This document shows, in pieces, positions 18,171 to 19,661 of a stretch of DNA of 56,030 nucleotides. The position numbers were made by a program, and so were the translations under genes. Where the stretch lies: positions 1 through 56,030 of IMG/VR virus record IMGVR_UViG_3300035703_000118. One strand, written 5' to 3'. This DNA comes from a virus. Position 1 is the stretch's first letter. The number at the start of each line of letters is the position of its first letter. The notes below the pieces were generated by a model, which was given only the letters and a program-made list of their open reading frames with translations, was not told the DNA's origin and searched no databases.

Positions 18171-18539
18171 ATGGTTGAGAAGTATGTGCCGAAGGTTGGC
18201 GACAAAGTACGCGCCACGTTGGGCGAGAACGTGCTAGTGGGGCGAGTAGATGACATTGGCGAGAAGTTCGGAAACTGGGTCAGCTTGCTTCCTGATGGGA
18301 TCGAAGATGTTGAGCCGTACCTTCTGAGCGGTGCCGACGGTTGGCACTTTGAGCAGTTCGTGTCCGTGCCTACGAAGTTTGGGGCAGTCATCCGACGAGC
18401 AGACGGTCGCACGTTTGTACACGCACCGAGCAGGATTGGCGACACGGTGCCATGGTTTGCCAACAGTCGGCACTGGGCGAGTACAGAAAACGCAACCGCT
18501 GGTGGTTTCACTGTCCTGTTCGACGGGGTAGACGAATGA
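18171..18539 (+). CDS. hypothetical SH3-like protein, 122 aa
   Basis: Has the best ribosome binding site of the arm (AAGGAGG, six bases before ATG). The N-terminus (PKVGDKVRATLGENVLVGRV) resembles a KOW/SH3-type barrel start; the rest is beta-rich with Trp residues. No family recognised. Confidence 0.65.
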   Translation: MVEKYVPKVGDKVRATLGENVLVGRVDDIGEKFGNWVSLLPDGIEDVEPYLLSGADGWHFEQFVSVPTKFGAVIRRADGRTFVHAPSRIGDTVPWFANSRHWASTENATAGGFTVLFDGVDE

Positions 18540-18823
18540 GCAACCCGCTCACGCAACTGGTAGTCGAGTTTCAGCACGCCGAAACCGCCCGCGACCGAAT
18601 CATTGCCCGCGCTGAAGTGGAAATCAAAAACGCTGAACACGATTTCCGTGAGCGAATGGCAATCGCTGCGCAAGGTGCCCACACTGCCGGGGTGACGCGC
18701 TACATGGCACAGAAGGTGACCGGCGCACCCGCAAGCCAAGTCAACGAGTGGTTTGGCGACCTGCCGACTGCGAAACCTGGCCGTCGCCGTAAAGACGACC
18801 CGATCTACGGAGGTAAGCAATGA
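18536..18823 (+). CDS. helical HTH-like protein, distant relative of the 13-kb paralogues
   Basis: 95 residues: a long charged helix (ETARDRIIARAEVEIKNAEH) leads to AGVTRYMAQKVTGAPASQVN, the same layout as AGLSDYAIGLASG and GLSQYAISTLTGKT in the 13.0-14.1 kb trio. The C-terminus is basic (GRRRKDD). A DNA-binding role is inferred from the HTH-like unit. Start and stop overlap both neighbours. Confidence 0.6.
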   Translation: MSNPLTQLVVEFQHAETARDRIIARAEVEIKNAEHDFRERMAIAAQGAHTAGVTRYMAQKVTGAPASQVNEWFGDLPTAKPGRRRKDDPIYGGKQ

Positions 18824-19401
18824 GCGAGTTTGAGTACATTGAGTGCCCTGAAGGTCAAGAGCAAGGCCCAGCGATTGAGGGCACAGCGCCCTACTGTGTG
18901 CCCGCCGACGAGGCAAATCCCAGTGCGCCCGTACTGGAAGTGGGCTTGTTGATCTACAAGAAGCTCGACGCCACACTCCCCGCAGCGTGGCCCAATTCGG
19001 GAGAGCAGACGTTTATTGCTGCGCAACCGGGCACGAACTGGTTTACGGTTTTCCCCGGCGAGTTGCCCGCGCATGTGTGCGGTGACGGCTGGGCGGTGCA
19101 GCAGGACGCCATTGAGCATGACGGCAGTTTCGTGTGGCCGCTGACGATTACCTACCCGGACAACGTGTTGTCGAAGGCTGGCGTGTTGAATGCCGCCATT
19201 CACCAGGAGTTGTCGGAGTTGGTTGACGTGCCTGAGTGCGTTACGGTCACGCCCGAGCCGACGCCGCCGCCTACGGCCCCGCGCGAACTTGCGGAAACTG
19301 GCTTTGACCCCTTGACCGGAATGCTTTTTGCCGGTAGTGTTTTCCTTATCGGGGTTGCTGTTCTGGTGGCCCGTTCTCTGCGCAAGGGGGCCAAAGCATG
19401 A
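18820..19401 (+). CDS. LAETG-motif putative surface-anchored protein, 193 aa
   Basis: The C-terminus has the three-part sorting signal of sortase substrates: LAETG (about 157-161), a hydrophobic span (LFAGSVFLIGVAVLVARSL) and a basic tail (RKGAKA). LAxTG is the motif linked to class E sortases, common in Actinobacteria. A Pro/Thr-rich stalk (TPEPTPPPTAP) precedes it, as in wall-anchored proteins, and the upstream domain has four Cys. There is no N-terminal signal peptide, so export would be unusual; it may instead be a tail-anchored membrane protein. Its place in the early arm suggests action on the infected cell surface, for example exclusion of other phages. That role is inference. Confidence 0.65.
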   Translation: MSEFEYIECPEGQEQGPAIEGTAPYCVPADEANPSAPVLEVGLLIYKKLDATLPAAWPNSGEQTFIAAQPGTNWFTVFPGELPAHVCGDGWAVQQDAIEHDGSFVWPLTITYPDNVLSKAGVLNAAIHQELSELVDVPECVTVTPEPTPPPTAPRELAETGFDPLTGMLFAGSVFLIGVAVLVARSLRKGAKA

Positions 19402-19661
19402 CCTACTACAAGTGCGACGACTGCGGTGAAACTTTTGACCGCACCGAAATGGTGTTTGACGAGTCGGGCGAAATCCAAATGTGCCAGACCGATTGGGCTG
19501 ATTTCATGGGCGCACTGGCGTCCGAGGCTTACGCTGACCGTTACCACGACCCGCGCCCCGCTGTCGGTGGCTACGACCCGCACGACCCGAAGCGCCCCGA
19601 CTATGTTGAGCGGCTGCTTGACGCGGCTGACGATTTGCGTAGTGAGCGGGCTTTCGCATGA
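19398..19661 (+). CDS. zinc-ribbon-like acidic protein, 87 aa
   Basis: ATG 19398 overlaps the previous stop. N-terminal YYKCDDCGETFDRTEMVF and MCQTDW give a C-x2-C...C zinc-ribbon-like site; the rest is acidic and helical. No family recognised. Confidence 0.65.
   Translation: MTYYKCDDCGETFDRTEMVFDESGEIQMCQTDWADFMGALASEAYADRYHDPRPAVGGYDPHDPKRPDYVERLLDAADDLRSERAFA

Follow-up and report, generated by a model that had tools for sequence, protein, structure and literature searches.

The window, by which we mean the whole stretch of DNA analysed here (56,030 bases, from a virus record), carries helicase- and exonuclease-like genes in a rightward block that runs from about 13 to 37 kb, and in this block lies a gene for a 193-residue protein ending in a LAETG sorting signal (Table 1). 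An earlier note, made from the DNA alone, had called it a phage early protein; the virus record and the helicase and exonuclease genes bear out the phage origin, while "early" follows from the position of the gene only. The GGAGG ribosome-binding site, the in-frame TAA and the ATGA overlaps fix the start of the gene and leave neither an upstream extension nor room for a signal peptide. The best hydrophobic 11-mer at the amino-terminus scores 0.28, against at least 2.2 in nine of ten complete host LAxTG proteins (20 loci, of which the ten cut by the locus edge were left out); one host protein, L255, has no evident signal peptide. The 156 residues that precede the motif (the N-tail) contain 23 Asp/Glu and 4 Lys/Arg, giving a net charge of -19. 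With 4.1% Lys/Arg the protein has the lowest content of the 25 listed window ORFs, and it contains four cysteines. PHROGs, Pfam and PADLOC searches and a PDB sequence search gave no credible match for the window protein, and no sortase gene was found in the phage record. The gene downstream (19398-19661) is small and its product contains cysteine.

Table 1. Features at the LAETG locus, in window coordinates
Feature	Position	Strand	Remarks
Upstream 95-aa gene	18536..18823	+	ATGA overlap with the LAETG gene; co-conserved in L007 (62% aa)
GGAGG ribosome-binding site	18809..18813	+	consensus; GGAGG and ATG kept in L007
In-frame TAA	18814-18816	+	closes the frame upstream of the ATG
193-aa LAETG protein without signal peptide	18820..19401	+	relative at L007:257-877 (-)
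N-terminal head, C9 and C26, aa 1-33	18820..18918	+	fast-evolving; 14/31 aligned residues identical to L007
All-beta domain, aa 34-142	18919..19245	+	common to N-termini of Microbacteriaceae LAxTG surface proteins; model pLDDT 85.9
Pro/Thr stalk, aa 141-156	19240..19287	+	dN/dS 0.053 versus L007
LAETG sortase motif, aa 157-161	19288..19302	+	exact match in sequence; followed by FDPLTG
Hydrophobic span, aa 168-184	19321..19371	+	mean Kyte-Doolittle 2.59; modelled helix 164-190
Basic tail RSLRKGAKA, aa 185-193	19372..19398	+	4 K/R, no D/E after the transmembrane segment
Downstream 87-aa zinc-ribbon-like gene	19398..19661	+	ATGA overlap; Zn_ribbon_8 17.1 bits, below cut-off; L007 86% aa

The carboxy-terminus contains all the elements that the earlier note had described, namely the LAETG motif, the Pro/Thr stalk, the hydrophobic span and the basic tail, with exact coordinates, and together they form a sorting signal that is beyond chance. 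A regular expression for L[AP]xTG followed by a transmembrane segment and a basic tail finds 0 of 7,336 background ORFs of at least 60 residues, taken from 154 unrelated loci (1.34 Mb), about half of which were fetched for carrying a LAxTGxD-like DNA word. When the last 60 residues of the window protein are shuffled, such an ending arises in 63 of 200,000 shuffles. The curated sorting-signal models all score below cut-off, the best being NF041528 (strep_LAETG, 14.9 of 30 bits), and NF058583 (cut-off 65 bits) does not match the window protein at an E-value of 10. The motif alone is cheap: the DNA pattern LAxTGxD...RRR occurs in 83 stretches of viral contigs, 80 of these loci were examined and none ends in a sorting signal, such endings being rare in the viral contig collection under this pattern. 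The regular expression, which is blind to tails of more than 18 residues and so missed Chepli, Morrigan and SadLad, found no sorting-signal protein in CMP1 (40,000-58,652), CN1A (1-50,000) or Alleb (30,000-62,684). Its matches in short ORFs of Pan2, Bricole and PermaG are spurious, and a first match in Pickles13 was rejected as not being a sorting-signal protein.

A search for relatives with the same carboxy-terminus, which the earlier note had proposed, led to one close relative. It was located through a codon pattern for LAETGFDP on the 30,980-base contig IMGVR_UViG_3300037882_000980 (L007), which encodes a 206-residue homologue with a LAETG ending, no signal peptide and a GGAGG ahead of it. 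The contig aligns with stretches of the window from 8.0 to 20.3 kb in conserved order, and both neighbouring genes are kept (62 and 86% amino acid identity). Between the two proteins, identical residues number 14 of 31 for the head, 61 of 106 for the domain and 34 of 37 for the part that begins with LAETG, with dN/dS values of 0.51, 0.455 and 0.265, respectively, and of 0.053 in the stalk. The dS is 0.14 in the sorting-signal block and 0.89 in the domain, so that the conservation of this block could be owed in part to a recent exchange; in addition, the relative was found by its motif, which makes the motif agreement in part a matter of ascertainment, and for both reasons we do not lean on the identity to L007 alone. 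Scans with other peptides returned only the L007 contig again, and no homologue without L[AP]xTG was found in them. In the phage collection, tblastn found no homologue with the whole window protein, its carboxy-terminus or its amino-terminal part, nor with the host domain of L051; three matches to Dinoroseobacter phages (E-values 7-10), one to Bricole (E=10) and one obtained with the L007 protein (E=2) were judged to be chance. A first scan of genome contigs gave no confirmed relative, and the annotated phages contain no detectable homologue of the window protein.

The domain formed by residues 34-142 has its counterparts in bacteria. A profile of the window and L007 proteins matches L051 (Micrococcales bacterium 72-143) with an E-value of 1.5e-26 and L067 (Paraoerskovia marina) with 1.4e-25; both loci came from a genome-contig scan with a codon pattern taken from L007 and modelled on a similar motif, in which the matches listed were mostly to unrelated bacteria. 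The proteins they encode are large and carry a Sec-type signal peptide; that of L067 has LAETG...ARRRRA as its ending, and L051 reaches a LALTG at the end of the locus. In the family of G001, nine of 398 genomes match the four-sequence profile A3; this family is taken as Microbacteriaceae because it contains the Curtobacterium genome G003. Among ten domain-bearing host loci (nine of this family and L138), with open frames of 539-1,068 residues, eight have an evident signal peptide as judged from the printed amino-terminus, while L140 and L143 allow no verdict; seven end before the carboxy-terminus, and the three that include it all have LAxTG. By these profile matches, the domain is homologous to the amino-terminal domain of secreted Microbacteriaceae LAxTG surface proteins. 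Compared with these unnamed proteins of Microbacteriaceae and Paraoerskovia (L051, L067 and L137-L146), the phage form consists of one domain plus the sorting signal. Conserved motifs of the domain are YKK.D, N-S-G, CG.GW.VQQD and VP.C; in profiles A3 and A4 the cysteines that correspond to residues 87 and 140 of the window protein never vary, as would befit an extracellular disulfide. The full-length structure model is poor (pLDDT 65.4), while the domain alone gives a good, all-beta model (pLDDT 85.9, pTM 0.78). Foldseek searches of the PDB and of viral models gave no match at an E-value of 0.001 or better, and the likeness to beta-sandwich receptor domains (best VIA-align Z 3.8, r.m.s.d. 4.5, 71 aligned residues) is not meaningful. 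The domain (L137, L139-L146, L051 and L067, with no Pfam match in the window and L007 copies) deserves a family entry.

Proteins with the same general build recur in phages of Microbacteriaceae. The regular expression and tblastn led to Pan2_57, Cassita gp92/Lifes gp90, PermaG gp46 and relatives; including the window and L007 proteins, 22 were compiled and measured, the last L[AP]xTG serving as reference point. All 22 keep L[AP]xTG, have an N-tail whose net charge is negative (-1 to -22) and carry two to six Lys/Arg after the transmembrane segment, with the reservation that the queries included the motif, so that its conservation is partly ascertained. The absence of a signal peptide that the earlier note had remarked on likewise recurs, in 21 of the 22. 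The signal-peptide-less N-tails measure 22-55 residues in 18 of the 22 (only 22-32 in several family members), 74 in Pan2_57, counted from a GTG supported by a ribosome-binding site, 156 in the window protein and 169 in L007. The exception is Burro gp24 (L274:272-652), where a hydrophobic amino-terminal segment (score 3.67) precedes a similar head; it is a weak homologue (tblastn E-value 0.04) and a natural comparison for export. Positions 2 and 3 of the motif vary (A or P, and E, N, T, P, A, V or K, respectively) while L, T and G are invariant, a pattern consistent with what a sortase would require. The head motif ECKDxYVxxCNP is conserved within families. NCBIfam sorting-signal models score above cut-off for four of ten phage proteins scanned, namely Milani gp44 (NF058582, 34.3 of 27 bits) and, with TIGR01167 (cut-off 15.9 bits), Zepp gp42 (23.8), Morrigan gp43 (21.7) and L264 (17.3), and for none of five in another set that included the window protein. 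Triscuit gp17 matches 35 Microbacterium phage records at an E-value of 10, 25 of them at 1e-3 or better; 16 of the 35 records were read, as were three of the six in another match set (Cassita, Lifes and PermaG). Neighbours of the phage sorting-signal genes include DNA-metabolism genes (MazG, helicase, RecA-like and methyltransferase). A profile of seven of the phage proteins (A5) matches 214 of 398 host-family genomes, and at the 20 loci read the matches are to ordinary LAxTG/LPxTG carboxy-termini of larger proteins. The annotated starts of Pan2_57 (L002:13250-13642) and Lifes gp90 (L004:8873-9067) differ from the starts supported by a ribosome-binding site, and the basic stretch added by the annotated Pan2_57 start is probably not translated.

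The small Microbacterium phage proteins (PermaG gp46, Milani gp44, Triscuit gp17, Zepp gp42, FireCastle gp45, which is annotated as a "cell wall binding protein", and others) share with the window protein the absence of a signal peptide, an acidic N-tail containing cysteine, L[AP]xTG, the transmembrane segment and the basic tail, but lack the window domain, and no homology is detectable beyond this general architecture. Other phages also encode complete sorting signals, as in gp33 of the Curtobacterium phages Ashes, Moss and Mysterium (LAYTG) and gp23 of Listeria phage P35 (LPPTG); unlike the window protein, these have ordinary amino-terminal signal peptides. The NCBIfam entry NF058583 ("LAXTG motif-containing small protein") and some host ORFs resemble the window protein in having LAxTG without a signal peptide, but they are chromosomal and only 46-69 residues long; such tiny ORFs lie on host-family chromosomes at L285:6031-6195 (-), 54 residues, L286:3052-3261 (-), 69 residues, and L287:2872-3012 (+), 46 residues.

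Sortase substrates are generally taught as requiring a signal peptide as well as a sorting signal. Judged by its sequence, the window protein looks built to work like such a canonical substrate; since a signal peptide was tested for and is absent, it is not one. In Actinobacteria, class E sortases take LAXTG substrates, for example the chaplins (PMC5148588). The window protein is like these in its LAxTG, hydrophobic span and basic tail, and differs in being phage-encoded and in having no signal peptide. A class E sortase, which the earlier note had named, is near-universal in the family from which the inferred host comes, 37 of 40 G001-family genomes scoring above the cut-off of NF033747, and a sortase was found in none of the six phages searched. 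For a C. acnes phage an Ltp-like gp41 is described, in an abstract that does not mention sortase (PMC11480721).

With no signal peptide and with basic residues after its single transmembrane segment, the window protein would, by the positive-inside rule, lie with its amino-terminus outside and its carboxy-terminus inside (N-out/C-in). This is the orientation that sortase needs. With the basic tail holding it, the hydrophobic span would insert in this orientation and serve as reverse signal anchor and sorting signal in one, and the acidic, Lys/Arg-poor N-tail would be passed across the membrane. The host class E sortase would then cut between the threonine and glycine of LAETG and link head plus domain to the infected cell's peptidoglycan. 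Once anchored, the protein would most likely alter the cell surface; natural guesses are that it masks receptors or excludes superinfection. We regard the chances that the window protein is such an N-out/C-in protein, anchored by host sortase E with its sorting signal doubling as reverse anchor, as evenly balanced, and judge its export and anchoring as a whole in the same way.

Translocation is the weak step for the window protein, with an N-tail of 156 residues and a domain predicted to fold. Short N-exo tails insert via YidC without a signal peptide; the insertase limit is near 50 residues in mammals and probably lower in bacteria, and N-exo tails above it require a cleavable signal peptide (PMC13261788). 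The YidC substrates MifM and Pf3 coat likewise have a single transmembrane segment and a hydrophilic N-tail outside, stated to be acidic for MifM; acidic residues of the MifM N-tail matter, but the authors doubt a general electrostatic role (PMC8920935). The window protein has the charge pattern of such substrates, but its N-tail is much longer than theirs and about three times the quoted insertase length (about 50 residues or less), so that the insertion route strains: either Sec exports the protein although a classical signal peptide is missing, or the protein remains in the cell. The short phage members, by analogy, fit known YidC insertion. The export route, which the earlier note had called a puzzle, is indeed one for the long N-tail of the window protein. 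We know of no link between N-out YidC substrates and sortase. Tentatively, and at somewhat less than even chances, Microbacteriaceae phages as a group may use a signal-peptide-independent entry to sortase, the window/L007 lineage exporting a folded domain that with the head exceeds 150 residues.

The protein could instead be bound to the membrane and never exported, domain and sorting signal having been acquired without a signal peptide in the window/L007 lineage, so that the amino-terminal domain faces the cytoplasm. Neither the window protein nor that of L007 has a signal peptide and the N-tail lies far above the quoted insertase limit, but the basic tail after the transmembrane segment predicts C-in and hence N-out, and the lowest Lys/Arg content of the listed window ORFs, together with four cysteines, also speaks against it. 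The head, moreover, diverges while motif, stalk and tail are kept, and the short-tailed sister phage proteins share the architecture; we consider this fate rather unlikely. It is more doubtful that the protein acts as a decoy, occupying the host sortase during infection and lowering surface display by the host, with the cargo secondary. A decoy needs neither conserved heads, such as those with ECKDxYVxxCNP within families, nor the window protein's own domain (dN/dS 0.455), although the motif is invariant where heads vary, the phages searched have no sortase of their own (0/6) and the N-tails of 22-32 residues make the idea possible for the shortest members.

The signal peptide may have been lost by gene decay, or be hidden by a frameshift in the contig, as might be suspected from the signal peptides on the host homologues of the domain; this we disfavour as very improbable, given that the window has a consensus ribosome-binding site, a stop in frame ahead of the ATG and the ATGA overlap, and that the independent L007 contig likewise has a ribosome-binding site, an ATG and no signal peptide, the upstream gene being intact in both. 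That a tail-anchored phage membrane protein resembles a sorting signal by chance is scarcely credible: the curated models do score below cut-off for the window protein, but none of the 7,336 background ORFs has such an ending, the domain is homologous to one in true LAxTG proteins, and the ending recurs in 22 compiled phage proteins. The earlier note's interpretation, a phage protein attached to the host wall, is partly supported. Beyond that note, the domain belongs to a family of secreted LAxTG host proteins, the architecture is common to many Microbacteriaceae phages, and their short N-tails suggest N-out insertion, a route that the note had not taken into account.

Sortase substrates, N-out proteins without signal peptides and the NCBIfam entry NF058583 are known already; searches of the open-licence literature, judged by title and the beginning of the abstract, listed no description of a phage class of sorting-signal proteins without signal peptides, or of a long, domain-bearing member. 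A recurrent phage class with a sorting signal only would reveal a more direct path to the cell wall and point to a strategy for re-dressing infected actinobacteria. Phages such as this one, whose hosts are soil and water bacteria, may have a shortcut for bringing their proteins to the host surface. Signal-peptide-independent entry, if true, would uncouple anchoring by sortase from the Sec signal peptide. Tests of the class are already feasible, since Microbacterium foliorum NRRL B-24224 is the host on record for many of its phages (PermaG, Milani, Triscuit and Zepp).

Pan2 (L002, ON968453.1), recorded as a Pseudanabaena phage, is the sole phage record that matches the 12-30 kb region of the window in DNA (80.9%, one gene). 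It is filed under a cyanobacterial host; the only other tblastn matches of its LAxTG protein are to Curtobacterium phages, and the window helicase has matches in phages of Clavibacter and Microbacterium as well as in Pan2. The recorded host of Pan2 may be wrong.
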